From: Cinnamomum chago
Lineage: Eukaryota > Streptophyta > Magnoliopsida > Laurales > Lauraceae
Assembly: GCA_038049695.1 (NCBI GenBank)
Contig: CP142452.1
Span: 93,193,501 to 93,257,500 of the forward strand
DNA: 64,000 bases
Reading direction: 5' to 3'
The translations under genes and the position numbers were made by a program. This document shows positions 3,303 through 34,459 of this stretch, in pieces. The notes under the pieces were generated by a model. It searched no databases. It saw nothing but the letters and a program-made list of their open reading frames with translations, and was not told the origin of the DNA. The stretch's first letter is position 1. Every line of letters starts with the position of its first letter.

Positions 3303-6300
3303 TCACATGCTTTTGGCACTGTCCTCAGAAACAAAAGCAGTGATCCTCTGTAACAGCCAATTGAAGTCATCTTTGCTCTTGAGGAGGCTTAACCGTACAA
3401 AGCGGCTTTCAAATCCAAACTTGCTACCACTGCAACCAATGATTCCTGCTGCTTTTAGAATGGCATGACAGTCTGTTTCTTCCTCCATCTCACATCTCAA
3501 CCAAGCATAAGCTGTTGTGTACAATGAAAACATAGTTTGGGAAATAATGAAAAGCGAATATTAGTGAATTATTATTGTTTAGTAGATTTAAGAATAGAAA
3601 TATGCAATAAGATGATGATTTCAAGTTGATAGTAGTTTTCGTTTGGACACGAGACAGGAAATGAAAGGACTGAGCACTCATTTGTTTGAAGCTATTTCCA
3701 ATGGAAATTCCCTAGTCAGGCATTTCTGATAGAAAAGAAAATAGTTGTCTCCTAAAATTCTGAATTTCTTATTTGAATGGTGATAATTCATGCAATGAGC
3801 CTTATGAAATGTTCCTTTTTGCTAATAGAATTCTCAGAGTTTCAATTTCTAATATGTCACATAATACTCGAGCGATTGTGAAACCCGGTGGGGGACAACA
3901 TTTTGGGAATTCATAAATCCCTCAAACAAGCAATAGGAATTCTCTGAAATCTTGTTTTGGGAGAATCCGGTATTCTACAAATGTTGTCCCCAAGTGAAAA
4001 CCCAAACGCCCCAAGTATAGTCCAAGTTACCAAAAAGCTGATTTTTCGAGAATTCAAAAGGGCAAATGTGACTTGGAGGTGGGTAATTAGAATTCTAGCA
4101 ACTAAAAGCTGAATTCCAAATCCTCAGGATGCATCACTCGCCACCAGAGTCAGAAATTCCCAACATCCAGTATTCTTGTCAAAAATATCTTTAAACAGAT
4201 AGATTTGTAATACGATTTTTTTTTTACAGGAACTCTTCTTGCGGGGAATTTAAGAAAGCTCTTGGCCCATCTTCCCCCCAAATACTCACCAGAGAATTGC
4301 AAATTCCACCAGCTTTTATGGGTGAGAAATGGCTTTTAGCCCTCCAAATTATATAAAAATGCTGGAATTTCAAATGTTGCTTGCACAAAAGCGTTTGAGA
4401 ATTTTGGAGATAGAAGTTGGATATATAATTTGGGTTTTCCCAAACATAAATTCTCTGAATTCCAACAAATTCCCTCAATCAAGAAAAATTTACCTGGAGA
4501 AGGTCCCCTTATCTTTCTAAAGTAAGTGCAGTATTGAGGAGCTAGCTTTTGAAGTGAGATGCGTTTGGATGTAGACAAGACCTTGCTCAGCTTCATCCAT
4601 CGATCCCTCATCACTTGATACCCATATCCAAAGATTTCTCCTCCTCCTCCTTGTAAGACTACCTTCAGAAGCTTTAATGCTCTGAGTTGGGTATCATGGG
4701 AAACTCCCATGGTGTTCAAGTCCACATACCTTGAAACTCTCTCATATAGGCTTTCATCCTTTAACAAGGCCCACCTGCAAGAAATTCGACAACATCTAGA
4801 CGAGGCTCTTGTTTGGTGGAAAGAGAATAAATTAATTGTTTGCATTAGAATAAATAGAAATTGAATACATAGGATTTTGTGTCATGAACAGTTAAAAATA
4901 AAAAACCAAAGTTGAATTTTCAAAAATGTACATTGAATAAACTTTTCTTTTATAAAAATAGAAGGGAGGGAAGATAATAATTAAATACTGTCCATCACAC
5001 TAGTAATTCAATACATAGGAAAGTGAAGATCTCATCTACATCTTCACCCATATCGTTCACCCCTCATCTCATGTCCTTCACCACACGCCTCTTTAGTATT
5101 ACTTTTAGAGTTCATCTCCCAATAAATTCCTATGTATTCAATTCCAATATATCTTAATGCAAATAAACATGCCCCTAGAAAGTAGTACCCGAATCTACTG
5201 CCGGCATGGCCAGTAAGCTTAGACATGGTGAAGAGCATGATATCTTCATCTACTGCAGCCGGGATTGCAGTGTAATGAGGCCAGTAATAAGCATGATCAT
5301 GAATTGTCTTGACAAATGGACCTCCAAGAACGGCTTCTCTTAGACGACCATCGGGATTGTTTGGTGAAGTTACAAATTCAATGAATTTCATCGAGGGATT
5401 GGATGCGTTCATCCACTGGTAGGAGTCTCCTTGCCATTTATAGTTTGTGGATTCGAAGAATGTCGTCTGCTCTCTATAACCCTGTAATGCATTAAGACTT
5501 TAAGAGTAATAATCCAAATGTAAACTGTAAAACTTTAAACCCCTAGTGGGACCCACTTCAATGTATGCTAAATATCATGGGAGGATAATGTGATGGAAAG
5601 GTCTCACTTGTGAATATGATTTTGGGAAAAAAAAAATATTTCAATTATATCATCACAACCCTTGACGTAGGGAGCCTTAAGATTAAAGGGTTTTCTAAGT
5701 TATAATATTGTTTATGAAGCAACAGTGAGTATCACTAAGATTGGTGTCAAATTAGTTCACATTATTATTATTATTATTTTTTGGGCATAAACTCAAGTTA
5801 GTTCACTTGGGGTTAATTAGTAAGACACCCGTTGGTGAACACTGGTATATGCAAATACATGTGGCTGTCCAAATTGACAAATATAAGAGAGCAAAAGCAG
5901 ATAATGATCACATAAGGTGTTGAAATCTCAGTGATAACGAAAAAGAGTTAACAGCCATGAAAGACTAACCGAGTAATAAAGAGCCGATGCTACAACGCTT
6001 ACTGGTGTTGATGAAGAGGAAGTATCTAGGGAAAGGCCATGGACTGCTGCATTAAGCAACTGTGTGGATCCAGTACCAAAAACAATGAATTTCCCCTCTG
6101 CAATTGCATTACCGACGACTGCATGTAGCCTTCGTATGTGCCACTCGAGCTCTGATGAGATCGAAGAGCCATCGGCCATACTATAACTCATCCGATGCCA
6201 CCCCGCCACCAACACAGCGCTCTGAGTTGCTTCTTGGGTCCAAAATGGTTCCAAGAACAATGGATCCCCACTGATGAAATACAGTCATTAATTAGCTTAC

Positions 6301-7726
6301 TATTAATACTTTCTTATAACTATCCATGACTCCATTGAGATCCATTGATTTAACTAGAGCAGCCTTTTCTTTTATAAGGTTACTTCCATTAATTAGGTTG
6401 TTGTTTCTCTACTTTTCATCCCCCAATTATAACTGACCTGTAGTAACAAGAAATATAAGTTATAGTCAATTTAATGGGACTGAGAATGTAGGCCTATATA
6501 TTATATGGTGAGGTGCATGGGGCATTTCTCTGGTCGATCGAATTGCCAATAGACCCAATTTGACATCCTTTTAAGCCGTGCTAACGTTTGGATTTAAGGT
6601 TCGAGTATCATCTTTTGTTGTTCATTATCTAAGATTTGGATACTGAGTATTTTATCTTTTTAATAAAGAGGGTGTTCCATACCTTTGGGCCGGATTAATC
6701 CCTCCGCGCTTAAGGAGAGCTGGGTAAATCCCCGAGGCTCAGCATGATAATGCAGTTTCGAACCCGCGACTTCCAAGAGCAAACCATAGTCTTATGCCTA
6801 CTGAGCTATCCCTCGGACTGATTTGGATAATGAAATTTGCGCCCCTCGCCCCCTTGGTTTATTGTTCATAGAGCCTCCCAAGTCAGTCATTTTTCATTTA
6901 AAATTGCAATCTATGTGAGGATTTGGCATAACATAGACCAGAATGGGCAAACAAAATTCACATGGTTGACTCCCTGCAGTTAAGACTAGACTTTGATGAT
7001 GATCAAGTGAAGTTCCAAGTGGGAAGTCGCTCAACCCCAGATATTTGGCATGACTCAGCAACTCACCCGAGTCAACCAGGTCTACTGGGCAGTGTCACAT
7101 GGGGCGACTGATGTAACTCGGTCCTAGAAAAAGAAATATACGGCCGGCAGAAACCTGGTTGAATTTTCCACAAGAGTCCATTTATTTTTCTTAAGCCAAA
7201 ATTAATGAATGGTTAGGATTGTCCCACCAACTTATTTTAGGATTAGCAAATCAAAACAGAAAGGTAAGACGGATACACCGAGGCCCACTAAAATCGATGG
7301 CCCAGATCATCCTAGTTTGTACCATGGTTGGTCTCTCACCTTCACTCATAAACAAGAACATGGCAAGAAAACAAAAAAAAAAAAAAAAGGGGAAAGAGAG
7401 GAGATAGAAAACCTTGCTGCATCTGCTGGACAGTGAGGCGAGAACTGGGAGCAATCAGAGCCCCCATAACAAGAAAAGCATTCGCAGGTGGGCTTTTTTC
7501 CTCCTCTAGAGACGTTGCCACCTATAAAAGCTCGGCCATGGCCAGAGCATAACATAGATGCTGCTGCTTCTGCTTCAAAGGCAGCTTTTTTGGTCCATGT
7601 GAGCTCTATTTGTCCATCTACTATAAGATAGAGGAAGAAGAGATTCAGAGAAAGGGAGGAAGAGAGACAGATAAGACATTTGAAACCATGGATCTTAATC
7701 ATGCTGCTCCATTTGTTTCCACTCAT
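3303..7726 (-). CDS. Alliinase/TAR-family PLP enzyme, copy 1
   Basis: Five exons on the minus strand: 7726-7413, 6270-5970, 5481-5189, 4774-4494 and 3511-3303. All introns have GT...AG borders and the exons sum to 1398 nt (465 aa plus stop), which supports the model. The ATG at 7726 precedes a hydrophobic N-terminal segment (about residues 15-36), probably a signal peptide or anchor. Residues 60-99 hold six cysteines (60, 81, 83, 86, 92, 99) of the EGF_alliinase type. Exons 2-5 encode an Alliinase_C aminotransferase fold with GTGSTQLLNAAVHGL, TSPNNPDG, DHAYYW and SKLTGHAGSRFG; Lys293 is the predicted Schiff-base lysine. The junction motif SGDPLFLEPFW and GWHRMSY place it with TAR3/TAR4 and alliinases, not with TAA1/TAR2. 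Substrate is unknown: it could be C-S lyase of S-alkyl cysteine sulfoxides or an aminotransferase. It is the most divergent of the three tandem copies and looks intact. Confidence 0.9.
6643..6819 (-). mobile_element. tRNA-derived SINE in intron 1 of TAR copy 1
   Basis: On the minus strand the head carries an RNA polymerase III A box (TAGCTCAGTAGG, 6808-6797) and B box (GGGTTCGAAAC, 6765-6755), as in a tRNA. The 3' end is A-rich. Perfect 10-bp direct repeats GATTTGGATA flank it (6633-6642 and 6820-6829), the target-site duplication of an LINE-mobilised insertion. Its non-tRNA body (aaatccc/ggcccaaaggt region) is shared with the SINE at 39090-39324, so both belong to one family. Confidence 0.85.
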
Positions 7727-8821
7727 TCTCCCCAGGAATAATGGAATGGGGTGGGTCACAGATCGCTTTTAAATTGCTACATGATTGGTGTCTGTTTTTG
7801 ACATTTTACATGCAAACACATGTATGTTATTGACATTACAAAAATCCACATGTATCTTCTTTCTTTTTCACGTTTTTAACTAAAAATTACATATCAAGAT
7901 TGGTAGGTTAAAGACTATAAGATGATCATCATTGGATCTCGGTATGTATAATGGGGAGGTGCTCTTGTGAGATACACCCTCACCTTACTATGAGAAATAA
8001 AAGTGGAGCTCTCGCATTTAATTTGTTGACATTTAATATGGGTGTGAGGGCTCTACCTTATCTCTCATGCTAAGGTGAGAGTGTCTTTCACAAAAACACA
8101 TCCTTGTATAATTTCTGTAATTCTCTCTATAAAATAAGGCATGCGATATTAATGGGTTGGATCAACCTAAGACATCCATGCAACTAATCATAAGGTCTTA
8201 ATCTAAAAAATTGATGATCATTTCTTTATTTACATTTTGGTAAAATGAAATTGCATGCGGTATCAAACGCAAGACTTAAATAGGCAAAAAGTTAAGTTGT
8301 GGCTCACTTCAATAAAAGGTGTTTACTGTTGCAACTTTGAAGTTGCAGGTTGAAGTCATATCACCACAAAAAATATTTAAAAATATCAACTTGGCTTTTT
8401 ATATCAATTTCATTGTAGAAATTAGAGATAAGTTTATCTTTTACTATAAATTAGACGTATCATTATATATAGTTTTTTGAATGGTAAGTCATATCATTAT
8501 ATTGCAGTGATAAAACACTTAATGTTAAAAAAACAAATCTCTTTAGCGTTCTTTCATAAAGTGCCTAAATGGAGATGAATTTCCGTTGGACAATTGGCAG
8601 GAAATAATGTTGCAATATCATATGTCCCAATAACAAATACTTTAATTTTAAATTTATGTTTTTTAATCAAGATAATATCAGAAAAATACCTTGTAAAATA
8701 GAATAATTTTCAAAAATCTTAAAATAAAAATAAAATCAAAGCATTAAATATGTATGTTTTCAAAAATACCAACTTAGACCTCAACATCGATTTCATCACA
8801 GTAACATTAAGATGGATTATC
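7727..8821. other. Upstream spacer of TAR copy 1
   Basis: Contains the promoter region of copy 1, though no clear TATA box stands out. The stretch about 8120-8270 is recognisably homologous to about 29190-29330, which lies just downstream of TAR copy 3, and both share the GGCATGCGATATTAATGG block. This is spacer carried along in the tandem duplication. A weaker dispersed repeat at about 8370-8460 and 8640-8810 recurs at 15990-16130 downstream of TAR copy 2. Confidence 0.55.
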
Positions 8822-8921
8822 CACTTATAGGAGTTGGTAGAGTGGCGTGAGGCATGGTTTTACTTTTCATGTTTTGTGTTCAATACCTATCCTGACTCGA
8901 TGTGCGGTTGTGTGGATTTAG
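8822..8921 (+). mobile_element. SINE 5' part, split by the solo LTR
   Basis: A tRNA-like head is readable: an A box-like GGTAGAGTGG near 8834 and a B box-like TGTTCAATACC near 8877. The similarity stops at 8921, where the solo LTR begins. After the LTR the sequence resumes at 12288 with an A-rich stretch that could be the SINE tail. The call rests on pol III box similarity only. Confidence 0.4.
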
Positions 8922-12287: not shown

Positions 12288-12568
12288 TTTAGACATCATA
12301 AAAATAAAAAATTTGTGATAAATTCATTTGTTTGCTATAAATTAAATTTATTATGAAAATATAGTGATTAAATAATTTGAACCAACACAATGAGATATAT
12401 TATGACGACAAACTCAAATATATCTAAGATATTTATCACATGGGTTAGGTGGTCCGTGCAGTAGTTGTGACTGTGAGCTTCTTATGGCGACCAGTCCCAT
12501 CCATGATCCATAGTACAAATGACCAACTCTCAACAAATTATATATATATATATCCATATAGAATTTAG

Positions 12569-15101
12569 ACGGAAAAATTACCTAATACGCACGTGTTACG
12601 CGATCAAACACTTTAGTAAGTGGGGCACCAATTAGAGCAATTGAGTCCAATCTCCATTTGTTTTTACCTATTTGGCACATCGTCTGCGCCGACTTTATTT
12701 ACACTGAATAAGGTCGGCGATGACCCTATCCGCGAACCATATTTAAGGCTCATATCCCTGTTTCTTCTCATTCTTCTCTTCTCTTGTCCACCATACTGTC
12801 GAGACTGACCTTGGACCGGTGCCGAAGAGAGGTTGTTTCCATTTCCAGAACCACCAGCCTTCAAACTGAATTCCTCAACTGCTTCTCTTTGCTCTCATCG
12901 TCTTTTCCACTGTCCGTGATTTCTACTGACACTCCAGAGGTATTTATCTCTTTCCGTTTTTAAATCTTTGTCAATGTTTTTGTATTTTCCCTTCTTTTTG
13001 TTTTCTCTCCATCTCGCATATGATATCAAAGTGCATGGTAGGTTAGCTTCAACCTCTTTGTTCGATTTGTACATTGTTTGTTTGTATTGATTAGGGTTTG
13101 TAGATTCCAAATTTGGGGTATTTAGTTGAAAAGGACGATGGATGATTGGGGCTTGTTTCAACACTTTCAGAAAAGTTTGAGTGAGAGTTATTTTTGTTTT
13201 AACAGTTCCAAACTTGAGGATGTTATATGGCGTCAAATGCCACTAGTGGTTCATTTGTTCCTTTTTGTGTTTCCTCATTTTGACAATGTGAGTGGGTTCA
13301 TATGCTAAAATTAACCTCTCAAAATCTCTTCATAATAAGAGATAGATGGACCACTAGTAACCGTAGCCTGTAATGCATCAATTCATATGTGAAAAAAAAG
13401 AAGAAAGATCCCTATTCAAAAAACCACATCCACATGAGTGATTGAACCATATCATCTCCTCTTCAGGTAGAATGCGAATTGATGACACATTTGAACTACA
13501 GTACCCACCATCTATAAAAGAATTACACCACAGCATTTAATACTTAGAGCTTCATCAACCAATCGTCACCTCACTCCCCAATTAGATCATTAGAGTTTCA
13601 ATGGCTCTACACTATTAGTTATCTTGAAACTGGTACAATAAACTTTCTTTAGCAAATAACTAGGTGTGACATTTATATACTAACACAGTCTATATCCCCT
13701 ATCATTTCAAGAAATCAAGATGAATAACTATTTGTAAACTTGCAACCGATAATCTAGAATGTAAATAGAGAAATAAGAACAGATTTATGGTTTTAATTCA
13801 TCAGTGCTGGTTCTGTTCATTTTAAGCTTTCATTGCAGCTTGAATGACTGATATAATGGGTGTATTGTTTTGAGGGCAATTGAATGAATAGTTGGTTATA
13901 TGTTTTTGCTATTCTTTGGGTGGTGTGTAAATGTAGAAATGCAGTTTATGAGTTTTATTTGATGATTTGTGTTTTGTGCTTTATGGTGGAATAAATTTTA
14001 ATGTGGACATTATGTGGCTTGAGTACTTGATACAATGGGTGTTTTGTGTTTTAGGGCAATTGAATGGATGACTATATGTTTAGCTATTCCTTAGGTGATG
14101 TGGAAATATATAATGCAATTTTTTTTATCATTCAATGATTTGTGTTTTTGGTAGAATCAGTGTTGGTCTGTGCACTGTTTGGATTGATGAACAATTTCTT
14201 GACTGATTTTGTTCATTTCATATCTTCTTTGTGGCTTAAATGCTTGTTAGAATGGGTGTTTTTTTCTTTAGGATAATTGAATAGATAAATAGTTATATGT
14301 TTAGCCATTATGGAGTTATATCTTCTTTGTGCTATATGCGTTTTTCCAAATACGTTGTAATGTAACTTGTAATTGAAGTGATGCTGTCTGTGGATGTTGT
14401 GAATTTTTAACTATAAACGTACGAGATGTGCATAATTGTTTCTTAATTGTATATGAGATGTTGTTTGAAACTTTGAATGTCAATTGAATGTATGATTTGT
14501 TTGTGCTTGTATTTTAAATGCAACATTTATCTTTTTCTTGTTGTACACATAGTTGTATTATGATGTAAATGTCTTAGTTCCTGCATTTCATTCTTTTTTT
14601 TTTTTATACAGTGTCATTACTGACGCTGTAGCACTAAATTTTTTGAAAAAGTTACAACTTTTGGTTGAAAAATTAGGAAACCTGCGACAGTGATGACCTT
14701 ATTTTACACTACTAAGGTCATCACCGACCCTGTAATGGTTTCATTGAAGATGTTGCCTGGAAAAGTTACAACTTTTGCTTAAAAAAAAAAAGGAAACTTA
14801 TGTGAGTGGTGATCTTATTTTACACTACTAAGGTCATCACCGACACCGTAGCACTAAAAATACCTAAAAATGCATGGAAAAGTCACAACTTTTGGTTGAA
14901 AAATTAGGAAACTTGCGTCGGTGATGACCTTATTTTACATTGCTAAGGTCATCGCCGACTTTATTCAGTGTAAATAAGGCCAGCGCCGACGATGTGCCAA
15001 ATAGGAAAAAAAATGGAAATTGACCACAATTGTTCTAATTGATTCACCACCGGTTAAAGTGTTTGATTGCGTAACACGTGCGCATTAAGTATTTTTTCCG
15101 G
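12569..15101. mobile_element. Non-autonomous DNA transposon with long terminal inverted repeats
   Basis: The first about 165 bp (12569-12735) matches the reverse complement of the last about 165 bp (14935-15101). Shared blocks include the GCGCACGTGTTACGC region, the AATCAAACACTTTA region and the TATTTGGCACATCGTC region. The interior has no transposase. It carries a transcribed-gene-like leader near 12760-12960 without a coding exon I recognise, and a roughly 115-bp tandem repeat near its right end. Long TIRs suggest a Mutator-like element, but I could not find a convincing 9-bp target duplication. Confidence 0.7.
14608..14962. repeat. About 115-bp tandem repeat inside the long-TIR element
   Basis: Three to four copies, with the AAGGTCATCACCGAC block at about 14714, 14830 and 14945 (spacing 116 and 115 bp). 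Each unit itself contains a short inverted repeat around TGATGACCTTATTTTACACT, so single strands could form hairpins. The outermost unit merges into the right terminal inverted repeat. Confidence 0.7.
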
Positions 15102-16408
15102 TTAAATCCCCTTATATATATATAGACACACGCACACACACACACATATGAAGTGAAGTGGATTCGATTTCCAATTTCACTGTAAATTTCAAATTTGATT
15201 TTGACTCTTTTCATGTTGACCTCCTACTAATATCATTAATTAATCCTTCTATTAATATTAGCCATATTAATAACGTTCTTTTTACATACTCTTTTTTCTT
15301 CTATCTGTGTTTCTATTCATATCTCTATATTTTCTACCTTAAACGCCACAAGCCCTTTCCTCTTCTTCATCCTCTCTAATAAGTAACTCATTGATTTTTT
15401 TTATTAGGGTTACACTCTAAATTATTTCTATCGATTTTTTATTTTAAATCTTTATATTATAACTACCACTAATTATATTGCCTGTGCTCGGGAAGGGGGC
15501 TTTCGCGGGTAATGTACTGATAATAAAATGAGGGTGCAGGGAGTTTCGGTGCAGACGAATTCACCTAAATTCACCAAATCAATTGCGTTCTTTTGAAACC
15601 CATTTACTTACAGACGAGAACAAGTTGGATATTCTCAGGTCACTCTCAAAATTTGAATCTGGATTTTTCATGGACAACAGTCAAAGACCAAAATTAGAAT
15701 CTGGATCTCTTAATTGGACTTGATTCGGCTCTCAGGCCTGCAATCCCCTGTTGTATTATTAAATGGTCAATCAACGGTGGCAATCTTACTGTATCGAATA
15801 ATAATTTATATGTTAGATCATGTTAGGACTCTAAGAGGCTTGAATTTGCAAAAGGTAGGCCCCACCATGTTTTGGCAACTATATTATAATGGAGCGACAC
15901 TAGATTATAATTTTGTCCCAAGTATAATTCTAAGTATAACATTGGCCGGAAAAACATGATGAATATTTGAAGTTAGTGTTTTTAAAAAGATAACATAAAA
16001 AAAAAATATAGCGAGAAATTAAAAAAATAAATGAAAATAAAAATAAAATCAAGACATTAAATATGTATGTTTTCAAAGATATCAACTTGGGTTTTTACTT
16101 CGATTTCATTACAGGGAGATAAATTCAATTTTTTACTATAGATTTTATCGTGATAATATATTTTGAACAGCAAATTGAGATTATCAATGTGAGTGGATAT
16201 TATCACTTGCGTGCTTTTGAAGGCATCTACTCATACACAGGAAAAACTGATGTTTCGATGCAAGAGGATCCCCAGTTTCGTCCAAACAGGAGGGTAAACA
16301 GAGGACGCCACGCACGGGAGCAGAAAGGGGGTGGAGGAAAGAAAAAGTGATTATAATCTACAAACAAGGAGAAATAACATCTAATAAACATGTATTTGAT
16401 TATAAGCT
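15102..16408. other. Spacer downstream of TAR copy 2
   Basis: AT-rich sequence with a (CA)n run near 15126-15146. The part 15990-16130 repeats motifs found upstream of TAR copy 1 (8370-8460, 8640-8810), consistent with duplicated spacer. No gene recognised. Confidence 0.45.
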
Positions 16409-19400
16409 TCAAATACTTTTGATAGCCTCCTGTGCTACTAAAGCTTTAATTCGGTGCAAAAGCCAATCAAAGTCGTCTTGACTCTTGATTAAGCTTAGGC
16501 GTACATAGCGCTTAGAGGCTCCAAAAATACTACCCGTGCGACCAATGATGCCTGCACCACTCAGGACCCTCTCACAATCTTCATCTTCCTCCATCTCACA
16601 CTTCAACCAAGCATAGCCTGTCAAAAATTGCATAAGCTTTCAGCAATTTACACACAGAAAGTTGATCTTAACAAGAATAAAAACGTGCGCACACTCACAT
16701 ATGTGCATATCTAAGATGCTGAGTCATTAATAGAATTTACCTGGTGAAGGTTCTCTAATCCTCTGAAAAAAAGTACAGTACTGTGGAGCAATTTTTTGCA
16801 GGGAGAAACGTTTAGAGAGAGACAAGCTGGTGCTCAACTTTCGCCATCGGTCGCTCAGAGTTGTGTATCCAAATTGGAACATGTCTTTTCCTCCTCCTTG
16901 TAAGACCACTTTGAGAAGCTTCAAGGCTCTCAACTGGGATTCATGGGAAAATCCTATGGTGTTGATTGAGGTGTACTTTAACATTCTGTTGTACACTTCC
17001 TCATCTTTGATTAGTGCCCACCTGTGGATCAATATGAATTCTCTACATATATTAGCAGGCACGCGTGCCACCTTTTTCTGTAAAAAAATGAATAAATCTA
17101 GTCCCTTGCTAAAAGTTAACCAACAAGTATTGGTGTAGGGCTGTCCACGAGTCGAGCCAAGGCCTCACAAAATCCCAGCCCAATTAGGCTCAATCGATAC
17201 AAAATGCCAGCCCCATCGACCTTTCGAACCATCCCACGTAGAACTCGGTCTCATCCATTTTAAGCAGAATGAATATCTTGAAGAGAGTTTGCCTTGAGGC
17301 TGGTAATGTTTAGCATTTGATGATTACTCATAAGCCATCTATAATTGTTGGCGTGTAAAACCTCAATCATTGGATTGTATTGTATTTAAAGAGTTTTCCA
17401 TATCAATAGTTCTGTTGAAGCTCTGTTTGTTCACCACATGGGTGGCATGTATTATTAGTACTAAAACAACAAACAGTATCTGTTCAGGGGATGAAAGTTA
17501 GCATGAGTGTTACCCAAATCGGGTGCCGGCATGGCCAGTGATCTTAGAAAGTGTAAAGAGCATGATTTCTTCATCCACCATAGATGGGATTGCCGTGAAA
17601 TGAGGCCAGTAGTAAGCATGATCGTGAATTGCTTTGGCAAATGGGCCTCGAATAACAGGATGCCGTAGTAGACCATCAGGATTGTTTGGGGAAGTCACAA
17701 ACTCAATGAAGTTGAGAGGAGAATCAGATGTATTCTTCCATTGGAATGCATCTCCCTCCCACTCATAGTCCTCCGATTTGAAAAAGTTGGTCTGGGTTTC
17801 ATATGCCTGTACATAAACAATAACAGTGTGTGTAGTCTAACACATATAATGGACAAAGATATTTGTAAAAAAGATCTCTCATGTTAATCATCCAAAACGC
17901 TACAAGTGTTCGATGTAAGTTTTTTACTGAAATGTATTATAATGTGTTGATATGTGGCTAGCTTTTAGCTACGCATTGATCGCATGAATTCCTATGTGAA
18001 GAAGGTATTGAGTTTAGTACACACAAGTGGAGCAAGATACCTCTTCAAGACTGATACTTGTAAATTAGTTCTTTCTTTTCCACCCTTTGTATATATTATC
18101 TCTTTAAAATGATTTAGGGTATTCATGATGCAATCATACATTGTGAACATGAATATAAAGATATAGGGCACTCTCTCATATAGGGTACAACGTTTTTCAT
18201 GGGGATTATGAGATTGTCATAATATACTTGGGTAGAGAAAATGTATATTCATTCAGCCTATTCAATCATGAGATCACAAATTAACATACACTTGAGACAA
18301 GCTTTAGTATTGGACAAAGGCACCAAATTAAAAGCAATTAGTTGCATTACTAACCCCATAATAAGGAGCTGCAGCTACGACATGTGCTGGTGATGAAGTA
18401 TTATAAGCAAGGGCATGTACTGCTGCATTGAGTAGTTGTGTGGATCCATCTCCAAATAGAATGAATTTTCCTGTTTCATTTGCGTTTCTAATGACCGAAT
18501 GCAGCTTTCTGATGTGCTTCTGAAGCTCAATAGAGAGCATAGTACCCTTAGTTATCTGATAACTCATCCGGTGCCATCCACTCACCATAACTGCACTACT
18601 CTCTGCTCTTTGCATCCAAAAAGGCTCCAAGAACAAGGGATCTCCACTGCAATGGTATTAAAAGTGAGATAAATACAAGATGCACATTTAGCATAAAAAA
18701 AACATTTCAATTACAGTAAAACAAGGGACTTCAAACTTTGGTATTCTTTTGGGCACCCTTTTAAAAGCACAACATTCCATTCAATCTAAGTTCTGTAAAC
18801 AAAAGAAGATCTAAGATGACACTGATCCAAGCAACTTGAAAAAATAAAAAAACAAAAACGAGCATCAAAACTAGAATGAAGAAAAAATAAAGAGCCATTA
18901 ATCCTTTTAAAGATGATGCAGCACTCAAAATCATGTTAGATTTTATTGTGTCAGTTCTCTGCATAGGCTGAGCCACTTTCTAGTTGGCAATGAACTTCAC
19001 CATACAAATTAAGCCAAACTTCATCTATTATGAAACATGCTTATCCCGTCTTGCACTTCCATAGGTGATGGTCCATGACGGGCCGCACCGCACTTGTTAT
19101 CAATTGTCCATCACTTGATCAAAGTTGTGTAGTTTGCTAATAAGGCCTTCAAACTGGGAAGAGATCATTCGAACAATTTTTAGTTCAATTCACAAACTAA
19201 TAGCAAACTATTCTCATAAACTTCACTAAGTTGAATAAGTATAAATCCATCCGTGGAGCTTATCTAACAATCCAAACCACTCAAGAGCACTGCACCCCCT
19301 TGTATTTACACTTGCCCATGTCCAACTACAGTAAGAGTTGGCTCTGATCACCAGTAAAACATGCATTAAACTTTGGTTTTTATTTCGACCAAACACGATC

Positions 19401-21072
19401 AATCAAGCCCAACTCTGGTTACAAAAAACATCTGGCCCAACAAATATTATTTTGAGTGGTTTGGTTTTAAATGTAAATTCAAGTGATTAACTCATTTTAG
19501 CCTGGATGCCATATGAATTAGTTCATCAGTCGAACTGGAACTCTAAATTAGACGAATTAAAATGTGAATCAATTGAACCTACTCTATTGAATTTTCCAAT
19601 CATGGGCCATTTAAAGACTCTAGTCTAATTAACAAGAGCTAATTAAACTAAAGTCTAAAATTAAAGATTTGATTTTTAAGTTTTAATTTACAATTAGTTT
19701 GTTTGGTAAATTATTAAAAAACTCTTATTTCATGAGGTAATCGGGGTCCTCCTTGTAAAAATCACAAAGGGTTTTGATATATTAACCCTTCTTAAAAACT
19801 ATTTTCCCAATTTCATGACTGGAGTTTAAACAATGTCAACAAAGTCGCTTGACTTTGGTCAACAATTTTTTTAGACTTTTTTTTGTCCCCATGTATGTAA
19901 TAGAAATTGATAGATCCCATGATATCATAGGATTATCCCATGATATCATGATTTTTATGCAGCATCTGCAAGATAAACTTTCTCGAATGACAGAGCTTGA
20001 GAAATGGTGATAAGATGTGTATTTACTTTTTCCATGATATTAATTTTTGTGTTCTATAAAAAATCATAAAAAATAAACCTAATTAGTGGATGCAGGAAGT
20101 GTATTATAAAAAAAAACTGATAAAAATCCCATGATATCATGGAATTTGGACATAATAGTTTTTAAAAAATGTTCACCAGAGCCAAGTGACTAGTGACATT
20201 ATCTGAGTTTAAACCATTAAATATGAAAAACTGATTTTAAAGAGGATTAATATGTCAAAACCCCAAATTACAATATCAAACCCCATTTATTTGTGTCATT
20301 TAAAAATCTTATTAGTTAAATTTCATGTAAAATACTTATAAATTTTGCATTGTCCACCTCCATGAACTTTAACTTAAAAAACTATAAAAAAAAAATGACA
20401 GTCCCCGTTAACTTTTTTTCAGAGAAAAAATCTTTAATTTGTCAATGAGCTTTCAAAAATACCAATCTTTCAAAAAAAAAAGAAAAAAAAAAAGAGCTCT
20501 AAAAATAGAAAAGCAATTATACGTTTTCATGCTCAAATATGTTAATGAGCTCTTAAAATAAAAAAATTCTAAAACTCATAAGACGAATTAATCCAATTCC
20601 AAAACACAGTCGGTCTTTTTTTCCATTTGTTGATAAGCCCCAATCGTTCTGAATCTAAACCCCATACTTTCAAGCGTTCCAATCTGCGGCTCGGATCATC
20701 CAACCACGAGAAGGCCCAGAAGATGAACGCTCATGATCTCTCGCACATGAATAAGAGAACGTACCTGTCAGCGTCTGCAGAACAATCGGGCAATAATTCG
20801 GAGCAGTCGGAGCCGCCATAACAGGCATAGCATTCGCAGGCGGGCGCTCCTTGTGAGGATCCGAATCCGATGCCATCTAAGAAGGCCCGGCCGTGACCCG
20901 AGCAGGAAAGAGATGCTACTGCTTCTGCCTCCAACGCAGCTGTTCGGGTCCAAGTGAGGCGATCCGACTGGCGGCCGAAGGAAAGGTAGAGAAGGAAGAG
21001 ATTGAGAGAGAGGGAGCAAGAGAAAAAGAAGAAAAGACACTTGGAGGAGGAGCCTTGAATCTTATTACCCAT
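16409..21072 (-). CDS. Alliinase/TAR-family PLP enzyme, copy 2
   Basis: Five minus-strand exons: 21072-20765, 18646-18355, 17806-17514, 17021-16741 and 16617-16409. GT...AG borders hold throughout and the sum is 1383 nt (460 aa plus stop). Exons 3, 4 and 5 have exactly the lengths of copy 1 (293, 281, 209 nt). The N-terminus (residues about 11-32) is hydrophobic and is followed by the six-cysteine EGF_alliinase module. The Alliinase_C part shows GDGSTQLLNAAVHAL, TSPNNPDG (residues 238-245), DHAYYW (262-267) and SKITGHAGTRFG with the predicted PLP lysine at 288. No frameshift or lost catalytic motif is visible. It is very close to copy 3 and less so to copy 1. Activity toward tryptophan or cysteine sulfoxides cannot be decided from sequence. 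Confidence 0.9.
19768..20264. mobile_element. MITE with long TIRs in intron 1 of TAR copy 2
   Basis: The left end (from 19768, GGGTTTTGATATATTAA) matches the reverse complement of the right end (TTAATATGTCAAAACCCC, to 20264). Similarity continues inward for about 95 bp to the TTGACTTTGGTCAAC / AGAGCCAAGTGACT blocks. The centre is AT-rich, with several copies of the palindrome ATGATATCAT. A related, less complete copy lies at about 37655-38105. Confidence 0.65.
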
Positions 21073-22854: not shown

Positions 22855-22886
<32 letters not shown>

Positions 22887-22998
22887 GAAAATGATTTCAA
22901 GTACATAGGGTGAAGTAAAAAAAAAAAGGAAAGTGTCCTCACCCTATGGTGAGTAATTGATGCACTTGAAACTTTCTCATATATATATATATATTTAT
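21073..22998. other. Upstream region of TAR copy 2
   Basis: Promoter-proximal sequence about 21230-21345 is homologous to 34670-34780 upstream of TAR copy 3. Sequence at about 22445-22640 is homologous to about 37450-37630, also upstream of copy 3, so the duplicated block reached at least 1.5 kb upstream. In copy 3 the two homologous parts are separated by the 35.0-37.4 kb array. A (TA)n tract lies at 22856-22877. No other gene seen. Confidence 0.5.
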
Positions 22999-24809: not shown

Positions 24810-24842
<33 letters not shown>

Positions 24843-26262
24843 CTAATATTTAAAATGATCCATATATTCTTTGATGCACCCCCTCCCCCCTATCCAAAAC
24901 CCGCTAAGCACCAGTTTTGATGGTATGGTGGGCACCCCCACTTGGAGATAGGACGATCCAAATATTCTTTGATATCCCCTCACCCACTAAGCCTCAGTGC
25001 TTATGATGAGGTGAGCAGCCCACTTGGGGATGGGTGAGGGCCCTCTCAGCTATGTACTGTGATGAAACTTGAATCATCATCTTAACCACTTGATCAATGA
25101 CTGACAAGCTTTAAATGTCGAAAACGAATACATAGTTGATCCAACAATCCAATCCATTTGAATGGATGCAAACTTAGGATTAGAGACAATGCTGGGGGGT
25201 CATGTTTTATGGTCCACTCGGATGGATCATAATGTGCCCCCCCCGCCCCCCTAAATATTTAGGCACATGGTGCTCACCTTATCATGAGCATGGGTGCTCA
25301 GCGAAGGTTTCTTCTTCTTTGAGACAACATATATTAAAACAAGTTAATAATGTTTGAAATGCCACTTAATATCAACTTGACCACTGACTTTTATTCAGAC
25401 CAAACCAACCAAGTAGCTTGAAAATCCATTTAGGACTTCAAGTCACATGGTTGATTTAAATTTTTTAGATCAATACAAGTTGTTTTTAAAAAAATTAAAA
25501 AGTGACTTCTGCAATTGTTAAAAGAGGATTTTACTAGAAAAAACCCCTTAAATGGCTCACGCACAAATAAGGCGCACAAACAAGGACACCATAATTTCAA
25601 TTATACAGAAAATACCCTCCTGCCAATTTTAACTTCCTTTTTATCCCTTTTGACCGATCAAGGATATAGTTGCCCATGTCAATGGTGGGTTGGGCGAGAA
25701 AATGGAGCGGGAGAGAAGGAGAAAGAGAAAAAAAAAAAGAGAACAAAGAAGGCATGAGCGACAAGATTATTACTTAACTCTAGAACGAGTGACTAAAAAG
25801 GCTAAAAAGAAAATCAAATCGGCGGAAAGTCCTTTTCTGTGTAGTTGAGACTATGAAGTCCTTTTTCGTACAACAGCTATCTAATAGGTTTTTTCCCATC
25901 AAATTCTCTTGTAAAAAATATGGATAGTTATCGCCAAGTCTCTTGCTGGCAGCAATTATCAACAGCAACGTTGTACAGACCATATAAGATGTCTACTCAG
26001 ATTTCGTTGAATCCCATCAACATCTTGTGCCTTGGATTGAGATGTCCAAACCCGGCCCGGCCTGCCAGGAATTTAGCCTGGGCCCGGGCGTGCCTAGCGT
26101 GCTCTGTGTGCCGTTTTAATTTTTTTTAATTAATTTTTCCCCCTTTTGATATTAAAATTAAAAATCAGAACACAAGCATGAAAAAGGACAAAGATATTTA
26201 AGTGGTTTGGTCAAACTCGACCTACTCCACTGAGAACAACTAGCAACACCTCGTGCTATGCA
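23913..26262. other. Repeat-rich spacer between TAR copies 2 and 3
   Basis: Contains a 32-bp poly-T near 24810-24841 and a candidate inverted repeat between about 24985 and 25315 (TGCTTATGATGAGGTGAGCA versus the reverse complement near 25270-25300). It also has a GC-rich fragment at 26048-26100. No gene recognised. Confidence 0.45.
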
Positions 26263-28403
26263 TGATCCACCTTGATTTTTTTGAGTTGATATCGGGATCC
26301 AGGTGAGCCACCCGATGACCCATTTGATCCGTGGATCAGAAGGAGAACCCATGGGTAACCCAGTAGGTGGTGGTCCAGTGCGAGGTGGACCCTATTTGGC
26401 CCACCATCAAACGTCTGATCAGAGAGAGGGAGAGTACGTGTTTTAGGAAGCAATTAAGAAGCGTAATTTTTTTTTAAAGTTTCAATCATTGTTTGGTCCA
26501 TTTAGTTTCTTGCGTTGATACCGAGACCCAGGTGTGCCACCGGATGACCTATCCGATCTGTGGATTCAAAGAAAACCCACCGGAGACCCATTATGTGGTG
26601 GACTCGTGCGAGTTGGGCCCTGTTTGACTCACCATCTAATGTCTGATCAGAGAGAGAAATATGACTTATTTTAGGAAGCAATTAAGAAGTTGAATTTTTT
26701 TTTTAAAGTTTGAGTCATTGTTTGGGCCATACAGTTGTTCCGCTTGATTTTCTTGCACTGATACCGGGACCCAGGTGGGCCACCAGATGACCTATCTGAT
26801 CCGTGAATCCGAAGGAGGACCCACCGGCGAACCATTAGGTGGTGGACCTGTGTGAGGTGGGTCCTGTTTGACCCACCATCCAGCGTCTCCGAGGAGGACC
26901 CACTTGGGACCCATTAGGTGGTGGACCCGTGCGAGGTGGGCCCAACGTCTGATCAGAGAGAAAGAGATGATGTGTTTTAAGAAACACTTAAGAATTGGAA
27001 ATTTGTTTTTGTTTTTGTTTTTTTTTAAAGTTTTAGTCATTATTTAGGCCATTCAGTTTCTTGCGTTCATACCGGGACCTAGGTGGGCCACCTGATGACC
27101 CATTTGATCCATGGATCAGAAGGAGGACCCATGGGCGGCCTAGTAGGTGGTGGACCCATGCAAGGTGGGCCCTATTTGGCCCACCATCCAACGTTTGATA
27201 AGAGAAATGGAGAGTATTTGTTTTAGGAAGCAGTTAAGAAGCGAGAATTTCTTTTTTTTAAGTTTCAGCTATTGTTTGGGCCATTTAGTTTCTTGCGTTG
27301 ATACCGGGACCTAGGTGGACCACCCAATGACCCATTCGATCTATGGATCCAGAATTGAGAATTTTTTTTTGTTTGTTTGTTTGGTTTTTTTTTTTTTTTT
27401 TTTTTTTTTAAGTTTCAGTCATTGTTTGGGTCATTCAGTTTCTTGTGTTGATACCGGGAACCAGGTGGGCCACCGATGACCTATCCGATCCGTGGATTCG
27501 ATGGAGGACCCATGGGCGACCCAGTAGGTGGTGGACCCGTGCAAGGTGGGCCCTATTTGGTCCACCATCCACCGTCTGATTAGAGAAAGGGATAATACGT
27601 GTTTTAGGAAGTAGTTACGAAGCATAATTTTTTTCTTTTTTTAAGTTTTAGTCATTGTTTAGGCCATTTAATTTTTTGCGTTGATACTAGGACCTAGGTG
27701 GGCCACCCGATGACCCATCCGATCTGTGGATCCGAAGGAGGAGCCACCGCAGACCTATTATGTGGTGGACACGTGTGATGTGGGCCCTGTTTGGCCCACC
27801 ATCTTGCGTATGATTAGAGAGAGGTAGAGTACGTGTTTTAGGAAACCGTTAAGAATTGAGAATTTGTTTTTGTTTGTTTGTTTTTTTTTTTTTAAGTATC
27901 AGTCATTGTTTGGGCCATTCAGTTTCTTACATTGATACTGGGACCCAGGTGGGCCACCCGATGACCCATCTGATCCATGGATCTGAAGGAGGACCCATGG
28001 GCGACCTAATAGGTGGTGGGCCCGTGCAAGGTGAGCCCTGTTTGACCAACCATCCAACGTCTGATCAGAGAAATGAAGAGTACGCGTTTTAGGAAGCAAT
28101 TAAGAAGCGAGATTTTTTTTTAAGTTTCAGTCATTGTTAGGTTCATTCAGTTGCTTGCGTTGATACCGGGACCCAGGTGGGCCACCCGATGACCCATCCA
28201 ATCTGTGGATCCGAAGAAGGACCTATCGAAGACCCATTATATGGTGGACCCATCCTGCATTACGTAGTGGTTTTTTTTTAGGAAGTTATGTGAGTCAGTT
28301 AGTGAGAGTGGAGAGAGAGAAGAGTGGAGAGGTAGAGGAGAAACAGACACGTGGAGCCCGGTGGTTAAATGAAGGGAGACTATATTCCCTTAGTAATATA
28401 GAT
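26263..28403. repeat. Degenerate tandem array A (about 235-bp unit)
   Basis: Nine copies of a unit marked by GTTGATACCGGGACC, near 26285, 26514, 26757, 27065, 27297, 27447, 27680, 27931 and 28159. Most steps are 228-251 bp, with one long (308) and one short (150) step. Each unit also carries a conserved GGTGGGCCACCCGATGACC block and the TCTGATCAGAGAGA block, followed by a T-rich stretch. The array ends with a GA-rich segment and the block GGGAGACTATATTCCCTTAG (from 28374), which also ends array B. Apparent minus-strand open frames recur because the unit is repeated, not because it codes. Confidence 0.85.
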
Positions 28404-29481: not shown

Positions 29482-29755
29482 TCAAATGCTTTTGATAGCC
29501 TCCTGTGCAACCAATGCATTAATTCGGTGCAAAAGCCAATCGAAGTCGTCTTGACTCTTGATTAAGCTTAAGCGTGTATAGCGGTTAGAAGCTCCAAAAA
29601 TACTACCTGGACGACTAATGATGCCTGCACCTCTCAGGACGCTCTCACAGTCTTCGTCTTCCTCCATCTCACACTTCAACCAAGCATAGCCTGACAAAAA
29701 TTGTATAAGCAATTTCAACATTTTACCTTACTGATCTGTGCTTATTGAAACTTGG

Positions 29756-29834
<79 letters not shown>

Positions 29835-29842
29835 CACATAAA

Positions 29843-29908
<66 letters not shown>

Positions 29909-32900
29909 CACATAAATAAAAACATACACACAAACATATGCGCATAACTAAGATATTGAGTATTTAAAAGAATTTACCTGGAGAAGGTTCTCTAATCCTC
30001 TGATAATAGGTGCAGTACTGAGGAGCAATTTTTTGGAGAGAGAAACGTTTGGAGAGAGAGAAGCTGCTGCTCAACTTTCGCCATCGATCGCTTAAAGTTG
30101 TGAATCCAAATTCGAACATGTCACTTCCTCTTCCTTGTAAGACCACTTTGAGAAGCTTCAAAGCTCTCAATTGGGATTCATGGGAGAATCCTAGGGTGTT
30201 GAGTGTGGCATAATATTTCATGCTGTTGTACACTTCCTCATCTTTTATTAGTGCCCACCTAGGGATCAATTTGAATTATCTACATATGTTAGTGTTAAAA
30301 AAAAAAAAAAAAACCTTAATCATTGGATTGTATTTATATAGCTTTCCTTATCAATGATTCAGTTGAAGCTCTGTTTGCTCACCGCATGGTAGCATGCATT
30401 AGTAGAGTAATAAAACAATAGAGAGTATAAGTTTAGGCGGTGAAGGTAGAGCATGGGCATTTACCCAAATCGAGTGCCGGCATGGCCAGTAAGCTTAGAA
30501 AGTGTGAAGAGCATGATATCTTCATCCACCATAGATGGGATCGCCGTGAAATGTGGCCAGTAGTAAGCATGATCATGAATTACTTTGGTGAACGGGCCTT
30601 GAATAACAGGGCGTCGTAGTAGACCATCAGGATTGTTTGGAGAAGTCACAAACTCGATGGAGTTAACAGAGGAATCAGATCTGTTCTTCCACTGGAATGC
30701 ATCTCCCTGCCACTCATAGTCCTCAGAATTGAACAGGTTGGTCTGGGCTTCGTACGCCTGTACATAAAGACATAAACACCAACACATGGTGTCATTAACT
30801 AAACACTATTTCCATACATGAATCTGATGTTCAGACATGAATGGTCTACTTATTGGGACACACATCTAATCGTCTCTTAGTCTTACACATATAAAGAACA
30901 GAGATATTTGTAAACAAAACCTCTCATGTTAAACATCCAAAACACATCAAGTGTTCTATGTTACTTTATTACTAAAATGTTTTATTGTGTTTGTAGGCAG
31001 TTGGATTTTAGCTTATGTATTGATGAAACTATGGAGAGTTCATGTGTAAAGAGAGTACTAATTTGCAAATAAAGAACAGAAATATAATAATTGAATAGGA
31101 AAAGTTAGGCCTTCATTTTGAAGAGATGAACTGCGAAGTTTAAACATGGATGCATGTATATGTGAACTCTTTTTAGAGTTTTCTTCTTTTGTGAATACTA
31201 ACAATTCAGCCATTATCACTTAAGATTAAGATCATGGGAGAACTAACATTATAAACATGAGACAAGCTTTAGGATTGGATTAGGCACCAAACTAAAAAGC
31301 AATTAGTTGCATCACCAACCCCATAATAAGGAACGGCAGCTACAACACTTGTAGGTGATGAAGAATGTTTATGAGAAAGGGCATGTACTGCTGCATTGAG
31401 TAGTTGTGTGGATCCATCTCCAAATAGAATGAATTTTCCTGTTGCATTTGCATTTCCAATGACAGAATGTAGCTTTCTGATGAGCTTCTCAAGCTCAATT
31501 GAGAGTAGAGTACCCTTGGTTATCACATAACTCATACGGTGCCATCCACTCACCACAACTGCACTCCTCTCTGCTCTTTGCATCCAAAAAGGCTCTAAGA
31601 ACAAGGGATCTCCACTGAAATAGCAGCAAAAATGAGATGAATAGAAGATACATATTTAGCATAAAAATACTTCAATCACAATGTTATTGTGCTAACCTAG
31701 TGAACCAAATGGAGCCTTGCCGTGGTGTTAAATATTTATCATAGCCATCGTTGTCTACATATAAAGGGACATTTGTAGGGTTGTAAACGGGTCGATTGCG
31801 GTTCGGGTTCAGGGTGGAACTGGAACCGAAACCGTTTTCTAAGAGTCCGAAACCGTTTTCTAAGAGGAGGACCCGAAACCGGAACTGGACCCGGTTTGGA
31901 ACCAGAAAACTGGTTCCGGAACCAGAACCGATAATATTAATGGGAACCAGAACCGGAACCGGACCCATTTGTGAGGGGGGTCTGGTTCCGGTTCCGGTTC
32001 CGGGTATGGTTCTGAGTCTAGACTTATACATGTGTTTTTCTTTTTTAAAAAAATTATGCTTTTTCCATATTTCAATTGGATCACCTGCAAACACTAATGT
32101 GACTTTTGTCTATCAATAACATGCACTTTTAATGAAAAAACTCAGAAAGTAGAAAAGTAAAAATGGTTCTGTTTTCATATACGAAAGTTACCTTATGTTA
32201 GTATATATTGGGTCGGGTCTCGGGTCCACGGGTCTGAGCCACTGTGGATCCGGAACCGGACCCGTTTAGGTATCGGTTCTAAAAAAAGGATCCGGAACCG
32301 GAACCATTTACTTATCGGGACCAAAATAAAGACCCAGACCCGGAACTAACGGGTCAGAACATTCTGGTAATCGGATAATTGGGGACCCATTTACAACCCT
32401 AGACATTTACCATCTTTCTTAGGTTTATGTGGGAAAGTGGGCCCTTTACCTGATGCTATTCAAATGCAGTTAAAGCTCACAAAAAAAAAAAAAAAATTCA
32501 CGTAATGCAGTTAAAGCTCATGGGCCCGCTTAGATGCCTATCTATGAAAGGGAAAGGATAGATGAGAAGCATCTTATAGACAGGGTGTCAGCAAATAAAA
32601 TAGTCCCTCAGCAGCTCAGCATCTTATAGACAGGGTGTCAGCAAATAAAATAGTCCCTCAGCTTATCTAAGCCCAATTGCCCAAAACCAAAAAAAAATAA
32701 ATAGCCCAATTGGCTTAAACTTGAATAGTACTTTAGCCATACATTCTTGTTTTGATTCGGCCTTGTGTTAGATCATGAGATGAGAAGAGTTTGTAAGGGG
32801 CTTCCATGATTAAAGATGGGCCCAAGTAAGACCATACGGAGAGCTGGATTGTATGGCTAGTTTGGTACTTTACTATCATAGTAAAAATCAAGTAAAACTT

Positions 32901-33388
32901 TCATTTTTCAAACAAAATGTCATGTCAAATTTCTCATACAAAAGTAAAAAAAGATCCCATAACAAACATCTCAAAACAAAATACCAACATATATAACCCA
33001 CTTATATATGGGGCTAGCTCTCCTAAGCTCAAGCTTAGGATAAGGTAAGCTCAAGTGTGTGGTGGGGACCACTTGGGGACCCTCATGGAAATGAGGATGG
33101 GGGGAATTTCAAGGACTCCTTGGGATCCTCCTCCCTGCAAAAAATTAGCCCCAATCATGATTTCTATCATCTCCATATTGGCCCAAAAGTTTAATGGTCA
33201 ATAGTCCATTCGAATCGATATATAATCAATCCAACGGTCCAGTAAATTCGGATCTAATCGAAAGTTGGTGGACATATGCAATTTAGGGGGGTCATGTGTT
33301 TTGTCCATTTGGATGGACCAAATGTGAGCCCCACAAGCATGAGCTTACGAAATTTTATCCTAAACTTGAGCTTAGGAGAGCCTTGCTC

Positions 33389-33436
<48 letters not shown>

Positions 33437-34459
33437 CGAAATCAACTTGTTGACTCGACTCTATTTAGTAGAGTTGCCAAACTGACCTAAATTATAAGGA
33501 GAATATAATTCTCCCGCGCCCTACCCACTTACCAATCAGCATCATATATTCTTACCCTTTTATTCTTCCTCTTCTTATAATTGACAAGCCCACCCCAGAT
33601 TTTTACAAGCATTCCATTTTACTTTACATTTTGTCAACAAAGTGAGCAAAAATATTCTCCCTCTGCAAGACCACTCATCCAGACCGTCCCAAAAAGGGCC
33701 CCACTTATTATCAACCATCCATCCCTTGATCAAACTTCTCTTCACATCAATTGGTATTAGAGCCGGCGATCCATCTCAGATTGCTATTCCGATCATCCGT
33801 TTCATTACCATCCACCATCTACTCATTCACCCATCCCTGCAATCATCCGATAACCCATTCCAACCACCAAGTCCGGCAATCCACCCACCTACCCACCCCA
33901 TTCCCATCACCATTCTTTCACTATCCCAGCAGCCCTACCCGCACCGTGTCCCTAGACTAACCAACCGTGCAGTTTTACCGTAAACAAGACAAAAGCCAAT
34001 CAGTCCTTTTGATTTCCACTCATCGAGATGTCCCAATTGTTTTGAATCTGAACCGTCCATCTCCTAATCATCACCACCCCCAATCCCCATGAAGGCCCAG
34101 AAGATGAACGCTCAGGATCTCTCGCACGTGAATAAGAGAACGTACCTTTCAGCGTCTGCAGGACAATCGGGCAATAATTCGGAGCAGTCGGAGCCCGCAT
34201 AACAGGCATAGCATTCGCAGGCGGGTTCTCCTTGGGAGGATCCGATGCCATCTAAGAAGGCCCGGCCGTGACCCGAGCAGGAGATAGATGCTACAGCTTC
34301 TGCCTCCAACGCAGCCTGTCGGGTCCAAGTGAGGCGATCCGGTTGGCGACCGAATAAGAAAAGGTAGAGAAGGAAGAGATTGAGAGAGAGGGAGGAGCTG
34401 AGAAAGAAGAAATAACACTTGGAGGAGGAGAAGCCATGCATACTATCACCCATGGTCAT
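29482..34459 (-). CDS. Alliinase/TAR-family PLP enzyme, copy 3
   Basis: Five minus-strand exons: 34459-34146, 31614-31320, 30757-30465, 30258-29978 and 29690-29482. Exons 3-5 again measure 293, 281 and 209 nt. The total is 1392 nt (463 aa plus stop) from the ATG at 34459; a second in-frame ATG at 34453 aligns better with copy 2 and would give 461 aa. A hydrophobic N-terminus is followed by the six-cysteine EGF_alliinase module and then Alliinase_C with GDGSTQLLNAAVHAL, TSPNNPDG, DHAYYW and SKLTGHAGTRFG (PLP lysine 291). All motifs are intact. Intron 1 (2.5 kb) carries a hAT-type MITE, a fold-back element and a perfect 50-bp duplication. Intron 4 (287 bp) is about half (TC)n. It is the sister of copy 2. 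The role is inferred only from the family. Confidence 0.9.
29761..29904. repeat. Compound (TC)n microsatellite in intron 4 of TAR copy 3
   Basis: Two uninterrupted TC tracts, about 70 bp (29761-29830) and 60 bp (29845-29904). Each is followed by the same 14-bp CATGCACATAAATA (29831-29844 and 29905-29918). The structure is therefore a tandem duplication of [TC tract + 14-mer]. The equivalent intron of copy 2 has no such tract. Confidence 0.95.
31776..32401. mobile_element. hAT-type MITE in intron 1 of TAR copy 3
   Basis: The termini are inverted repeats: TAGGGTTGTAAACGGGTC at 31776 and the complement of TAGGGTTGTAAATGGGTC ending at 32401. Flanking 8-mers GACATTTG (31768-31775) and GACATTTA (32402-32409) match at 7 of 8 positions, the target-site length of hAT elements. 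The 626-bp interior is rich in CCGGAACC/GGTTCCGG repeats and has no transposase. Confidence 0.85.
32568..32664. repeat. Perfect 50-bp tandem duplication
   Basis: The segment beginning AGCATCTTATAGACAGGG at 32568 is repeated from 32618, 50 bp later. About 47 bp are identical with no mismatch, so the duplication is recent. It lies in intron 1 of TAR copy 3. Confidence 0.95.
33010..33389. mobile_element. Fold-back / MITE element in intron 1 of TAR copy 3
   Basis: Terminal inverted repeats of about 30 bp (GCTCTCCTAAGCTCAAGC at 33017 and its complement ending at 33381, extending to 33010 and 33389). It is flanked by TATATAT on both sides, extended on the right by a (TA)n microsatellite (33395-33433). 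The interior is homologous to 23000-23340. No coding capacity. Confidence 0.75.
33395..33433. repeat. (TA)n microsatellite
   Basis: About 19 uninterrupted TA dinucleotides directly right of the fold-back element, probably grown from its AT-rich target site. Confidence 0.9.

Follow-up and report, generated by a model that had tools for sequence, protein, structure and literature searches.

A four-gene tandem array of probable alliinase-clade (TAR3/TAR4-type) enzymes in Cinnamomum chago

Plant genes that carry both an EGF_alliinase and an Alliinase_C domain mark the alliinase clade (TAR3, TAR4), and the paper that says so gives the function of this clade as yet to be described (PMC10015382). 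PMC9309667 gives the in vivo roles in the subclade, alliinases apart, as unknown. Tandem or proximal alliinase genes occur in garlic and bunching onion (PMC9637129), the fern Ceratopteris has more than one TAR3/4-type gene (PMC12829780), and alliinase analogues outside Allium are mentioned (PMC11668612). In the wider TAR family of Brassica napus tandem duplication is reported to have had a minor role only (PMC9811149). Our literature search covered titles and abstract openings, with few subscription journals, and among the matches listed there was no functional study of an EGF-bearing alliinase gene from outside Allium. Here we consider a stretch of 64,000 nucleotides from Cinnamomum chago (contig CP142452.1, positions 93,193,501 to 93,257,500), called the window below. 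Its positions 3303-34459 hold three minus-strand genes, c1, c2 and c3, arranged head-to-tail. We argue, with moderate confidence, that they belong to a tandem array of alliinase-clade (TAR3/TAR4-type) pyridoxal phosphate (PLP) enzymes that act as cysteine C-S beta-lyases.

Exons were placed by aligning the copies with one another and by looking for open frames and GT-AG ends, and the gene models are built from sequence only. c1, c2 and c3 each have five exons, GT-AG introns and intron phases 2/0/2/1. Exons 3, 4 and 5 are 293, 281 and 209 nt long in every one of them. Each coding sequence has a length divisible by three and a single stop, at its end. A first-pass annotation of this DNA had described three head-to-tail genes with matching introns and equal lengths of exons 3-5, together with intact PLP lysines (293, 288 and 291) and six-cysteine modules. 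All of this was reproduced at the same coordinates, with the lysines in SK(L/I)TGHAG and the cysteines in the EGF module. At the protein level c2 and c3 are 86% identical, and c1 is 64% identical to each of them. The similarity among the window copies is far beyond chance.

It is worth considering what lies outside the window. A fourth copy, c0, occupies C2:93191175-93187018, which is about 2.3 to 6.5 kb to the left of the first window base. Its five exons measure 329, 292, 296, 281 and 206, and it has a 467-aa open frame, both of the domains (Pfam, 497 and 94 bits), a PLP lysine at K296 and all six EGF cysteines. The first-pass annotation spoke of a triplication. The copies are indeed in tandem, but their number was too low, because the edge of the window cuts the array. 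The timing implied by that word does not hold either, since the copies are of unequal age and arose by successive duplications. No fifth copy was seen in the window or the 30 kb to its left (tblastn), nor genome-wide with Alliinase_C.

The genome of the same plant (1.06 Gb, 14 contigs) was searched with Alliinase_C exon by exon, and the counts can be lower bounds. Of at least 32 matches, 16 belong to the C2 array; C10 has 12 and C11 has 4. The 16 on C2 are four genes with four matching exons each. By this search and by inspection of the C10 and C11 places, no intact alliinase-type gene was found in the genome besides the four on C2. C10 carries a separate tandem array of three TAA1-type genes on the minus strand (C10:66010391-66066157). 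At 10 of the 11 C10 hit places the top match among four queries is to TAA1, and the EGF module has no match in 80 kb of sequence around these genes. The middle C10 gene reads STCTGHEG in place of SKxTGHAG, so its PLP lysine is lost, and its exon 4 frame is broken; it looks like a pseudogene. C11 has two degraded alliinase-type relics on the plus strand (C11:47802512-47803864 and C11:50596513-50597533). Both share an odd VTFQK..TDG where the intact copies read VTSPNNPDG, as if they derived from one already damaged source. The family total here is seven genes, one of them broken, which is inside the dicot range of 3 to 9 (PMC5927418). A single scan for bacterial and archaeal relatives with a five-sequence alignment gave 64 pattern matches, none confirmed.

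The family assignment follows from domains, identity and phylogeny. EGF_alliinase and Alliinase_C occur together in all four array genes, and Pfam gives c1-c3 504-505 bits for Alliinase_C and 80-94 bits for EGF_alliinase. Among solved structures c3 matches garlic alliinase best (449 bits), followed by Arabidopsis TAA1 (284 bits). c1-c3 are 51-53% identical to garlic alliinase over about 410 residues and 42-44% identical to TAA1. Our main tree has 8 sequences and 339 columns; it covers the four array genes, garlic alliinase, two C10 genes and, as the one Arabidopsis member, TAA1. In it TAA1 clusters with the two C10 genes, with an ultrafast bootstrap (UFBoot) of 100, and the array genes are united to the exclusion of garlic alliinase (UFBoot 91). 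The annotation had named placement in different clades as a sign against its reading. The best tree unites the copies, while the alternatives survive the approximately unbiased (AU) test, with p 0.083 for c1 beside garlic alliinase and p 0.079 for the other array genes beside it. A five-sequence tree gives the array UFBoot 77 and the alternatives AU p 0.215 and 0.082. Support for the branching order of the copies is weak (UFBoot 71 for c0+c2+c3 and 76 for c2+c3). For excluding TAA1 the tree outweighs the EGF module, because within the TAA clade the module is missing from some phyla only (PMC10015382). Domain architecture and this tree thus support the TAR3/TAR4-alliinase type that the annotation had proposed.

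Active-site residues were compared in an alignment of the same number of sequences, eight, using garlic alliinase numbering. All four array genes keep the residues aligned with K251, R401, Y92, Y165, N207, D225, Y228 and R259. K251 is the PLP lysine of alliinase. R401 is cited as the carboxylate arginine (PMC4460571). All four likewise retain the S63-G64 and C368-C376 pairs. The equivalents of K251 and R401 are found in TAA1 too and are not diagnostic of alliinase (EC 4.4.1.4). Most of the kept residues occur in TAA1 as well, and so they indicate a working PLP fold, not a lyase specifically. In c1-c3 a hydrophobic N-terminus precedes an LTWT motif, and in the alignment this motif matches the start of the garlic alliinase chain.

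These proteins are probably secreted or vacuolar PLP-dependent beta-lyases, as the hydrophobic N-termini of c1-c3, the EGF module and the greater similarity to garlic alliinase suggest. The most straightforward scenario would be as follows. The array grew to four genes, three of them in the window, by successive local duplications. Each protein would enter the secretory pathway and fold with a disulfide-bonded EGF-like module. It would then use PLP for beta-elimination of an S-substituted cysteine or cysteine-sulfoxide, as garlic alliinase does, and the predicted products are pyruvate, ammonia and either a thiol or a sulfenic acid. The copies may have been kept for different expression or substrate range and not for dosage alone. 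In grape, TAR3 and TAR4 differ in expression (PMC3878033).

The ages of the copies were estimated by summing branch dS (synonymous divergence) on the tree (c1,(c0,(c2,c3))), and our codon model assumes that order. The summed dS is about 0.23 for c2-c3, 0.36 for c0-c2 and 1.03 for c1-c2. These values are unequal, and therefore the array grew stepwise. The codon model is a custom one that does not allow for gene conversion, and its p values are uncorrected. With four copies, omega=1 (omega being the ratio of nonsynonymous to synonymous rates) is rejected on every terminal branch. Omega and its p against neutrality are 0.23 and 4e-23 for c1, 0.48 and 0.016 for c0, 0.32 and 6.6e-5 for c2, and 0.40 and 0.0026 for c3. 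After correction for four tests the c0 value would no longer be significant with all exons aligned, but exons 2, 3 and 5 alone reject neutrality for it (p 0.0024). Retention of the copies looks selected, because each terminal branch rejects neutrality. The annotation had suggested as much from the window, and the suggestion gains support when c0 is included. It had named dosage or divergent substrates as possible targets of that selection, with sulfur-volatile or defence chemistry as candidate roles. With the three window copies only, neutrality is rejected for c1 (p 6e-22) and c2 (p 0.005) but not for c3 (p 0.13). Taken together, c2 and c3 reject it (p 6.5e-9).

Several observations weigh against the main reading. 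A single omega is rejected (p 0.004). Omega is 0.32-0.48 in the young copies and 0.87 on their stem, above the 0.23 of c1, so some relaxation or functional change is likely. At columns otherwise invariant among the eight sequences c0 has D112S, T179S, V259L and T293S, and c2 has G156R, S183A and D280E; c1 departs as well (P202L, A225S, V312L and F375I), and c3 has zero departures. The intron-1 donor of c1 is weak (AAG/GTTTTC) compared with GTACGT in c2 and c3. A stronger-looking donor, GTGAGA, lies downstream, but it is past an in-frame stop. We call c1 intact on the strength of this predicted weak splice site. The listed catalytic residues are mostly common to TAA1 and do not distinguish lyase from aminotransferase. 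The C368-C376 pair also occurs in C10A, a TAA1-type gene. The position of alliinase V132 is Ser in all four array copies, as in TAA1. The position of Q388 is Arg in c0, c2, c3 and TAA1, and Cys in c1.

One can imagine a scenario where retention is mainly inertia or dosage. Here c2, c3 and c0 would be near-redundant and drifting to loss, with just c1 or a single young copy of any importance. The higher omega of the young copies and their stem, the rejection of one omega and the departures in c0 and c2 all fit this. The two C11 relics are of the same type, which means copies can die. However, omega=1 is still rejected on each terminal branch, and all four frames in the array are open. In neutral simulations (4000 runs each) no premature stop arose in only 0.08% of runs for c2 and 0.83% for c3 at the estimated dS, though this fraction is about 8% when the smaller dS of the neutral fit is used. 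The simulation depends on the assumed dS and is weak support alone. We consider this scenario somewhat unlikely.

Another scenario is that the array encodes aminotransferases whose products are indole-3-pyruvate or other aromatic keto acids, a TAA1-like auxin function. The 42-44% identity to TAA1 speaks for this, and the PLP lysine, the carboxylate arginine and most of the compared active-site residues occur in both families. The Ser at V132 and the Arg at Q388 of c0, c2 and c3 also point this way. Against it, a fern study sets the EGF-bearing TAR3/4-type clade apart from a single TAA1 (PMC12829780). All four array genes have the EGF module and TAA1 has none, and separate TAA1-type genes exist on C10, where the 80 kb examined contain no match to the EGF module. 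Auxin-type transamination is a weaker rival because PMC10015382 and PMC12829780 place the EGF-bearing genes in a clade of their own and because this genome has those TAA1-type genes, and we think it quite improbable. Head-to-tail copies are the usual suspects for false haplotype duplication in an assembly, but such an artefact is hardly credible here, and we reject it on the coding and intergenic divergence between the copies: coding nucleotide identity is at most 89.5% among the window copies (70% for c1 against c2 or c3), intergenic matches are scattered and repeat-like, intron lengths differ, and the window contains no N.

Gene conversion involving c0 deserves separate treatment. It is hinted at because synonymous divergence is uneven among exons. 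Over the five exons the synonymous differences are heterogeneous for c0-c2 (chi-square p 0.0021) and c0-c3 (p 0.0029). Pairs with c1 give p 0.21-0.77, and c2-c3 gives p 0.073. Six pairs were compared, uncorrected, and since a grouping of exons 1 and 4 was chosen post hoc the five-exon test is the fairer one. Counting codons that differ but encode the same residue, c0-c3 has 7/70 in exon 4, 19/63 in exon 3 and 16/48 in exon 5, and c0-c2 has 7/78 in exon 1, 18/46 in exon 5 and 17/75 in exon 4. The identity of c0 to c2 and c3 is 87-89% in exon 4, 76-78% in exon 5 and 55-67% in intron 4. The case is suggestive, not proven. Against it, exon 4 is not low in c0-c2, and exon 1 is low in c2-c3 as well (5/84). 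Exon 1 may simply be slow in synonymous change among the young copies, which would be an alternative to conversion there. More speculatively, the four copies might have become different enzymes that make up a small sulfur-metabolism cluster. In that case c1, old and conserved, would still have the ancestral role of a cysteine-conjugate lyase, and c0, c2 and c3, made partly alike by conversion on the scale of exons, would have shifted their substrate range. As a complete scenario we find this doubtful.

c2 and c3 share their exons, parts of introns and about 70 bases beyond the stop. They also share an upstream segment of about 120-130 bases with 81% identity, some 150-315 bases before the start codons. 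Its score is 48.5 against a shuffle maximum of 22.5, the sole excess in six comparisons within 400 bases of the coding ends. The remaining c2-c3 intergenic matches are scattered and repeat-like. Two arrays built of one satellite-like repeat, with tandem periods of about 150-400 bases, flank c3 on both sides (window 26222-28290 and 35004-37334). One 74-base family beside c3 has 17 copies. The tandem-repeat listing of the window has no copies of the c3-flanking satellite beside c1 or c2. The arrays around c3 may have helped unequal exchange. Intron 4 of c3 contains a long TC microsatellite broken by a short unique stretch (29761-29904). Between c1 and c2 is an inverted repeat (12563-15107, arms 12563-12728 and 14944-15107), possibly a mobile element, and a 116-base tandem array at 14647-14959 lies inside or overlaps it. 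The coordinates of the three window copies are given in Table 1.

Table 1. Gene models of the three window copies and their parts (positions in the window)
Feature	Position	Strand	Details	Evidence
c1, 465 aa	3303..7726	-	exons 7726-7413, 6270-5970, 5481-5189, 4774-4494, 3511-3303	open frame, Pfam
c2, 460 aa	16409..21072	-	exons 21072-20765, 18646-18355, 17806-17514, 17021-16741, 16617-16409	open frame, Pfam
c3, 463 aa	29482..34459	-	exons 34459-34146, 31614-31320, 30757-30465, 30258-29978, 29690-29482	open frame, Pfam
c1 exon 1	7413..7726	-	hydrophobic N-terminus and EGF_alliinase, C60, 81, 83, 86, 92, 99	
c2 exon 1	20765..21072	-	hydrophobic N-terminus and EGF_alliinase, C57, 79, 81, 84, 90, 97	
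c3 exon 1	34146..34459	-	hydrophobic N-terminus and EGF_alliinase, C61, 81, 83, 86, 92, 99	
c1 exon 3	5189..5481	-	PLP lysine K293 (SKLTGHAG)	
c2 exon 3	17514..17806	-	PLP lysine K288 (SKITGHAG)	
c3 exon 3	30465..30757	-	PLP lysine K291 (SKLTGHAG)	
c1 intron 1, weak 5' splice site	7405..7416	-	CAAG/GTTTTCTA	

Further along the window there is an intact-looking AP2/ERF transcription factor gene on the minus strand (45403-46698), with a 431-aa stop-to-stop frame and an AP2 match of 55 bits. This was the sole match above the curated cut-off among seven frames scanned. Two 171-base direct copies with 90% identity (59768-60110) adjoin a 103-aa frame at 60085-60396. The window has no tRNA and no Rfam match.

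Alliinase genes in tandem have been published before, as have TAR3/4-type genes in more than one copy, and this array is a further well-supported case. A four-copy cluster is an ordinary kind of plant gene cluster. The interest lies mainly in the role of the clade outside onions and garlic, given that PMC10015382, PMC9309667 and PMC12829780 treat the TAR3/TAR4-alliinase clade as one whose function beyond Allium is not known. With four selected copies that differ in age and comprise every intact gene of the type found, this compact array is a convenient test-bed for that function. It could be removed as a single block, and its copies could be compared in one assay.

How does the array compare with known systems? 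It shares the EGF_alliinase and Alliinase_C architecture described for the clade of Arabidopsis TAR3/TAR4 (PMC10015382); the comparison with these genes is by published description. A carnation gene of the TAR3/TAR4 cluster has five exons, as the array genes do (PMC5927418). Garlic alliinase (alliin lyase, PDB 1lk9/2hor/2hox) has the same domains, the equivalents of K251, R401, Y92 and Y165, and eight shared cysteines. It differs in that the array genes group apart from it in the main tree, where the AU test is not significant, and in having V132 and Q388 where the array has Ser, and Arg or Cys. TAA1, TAR1 and TAR2 share the Alliinase_C family and the PLP site, whereas TAA1 has no EGF module and sits in a separate, fully supported tree group. 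The Allium clusters AsALL31-34 and AfALL47-49 already exemplify local duplication of alliinase genes (PMC9637129). Those clusters are part of flavour-linked Allium expansions, whereas here the four genes of one array are the only intact alliinase-type genes found.

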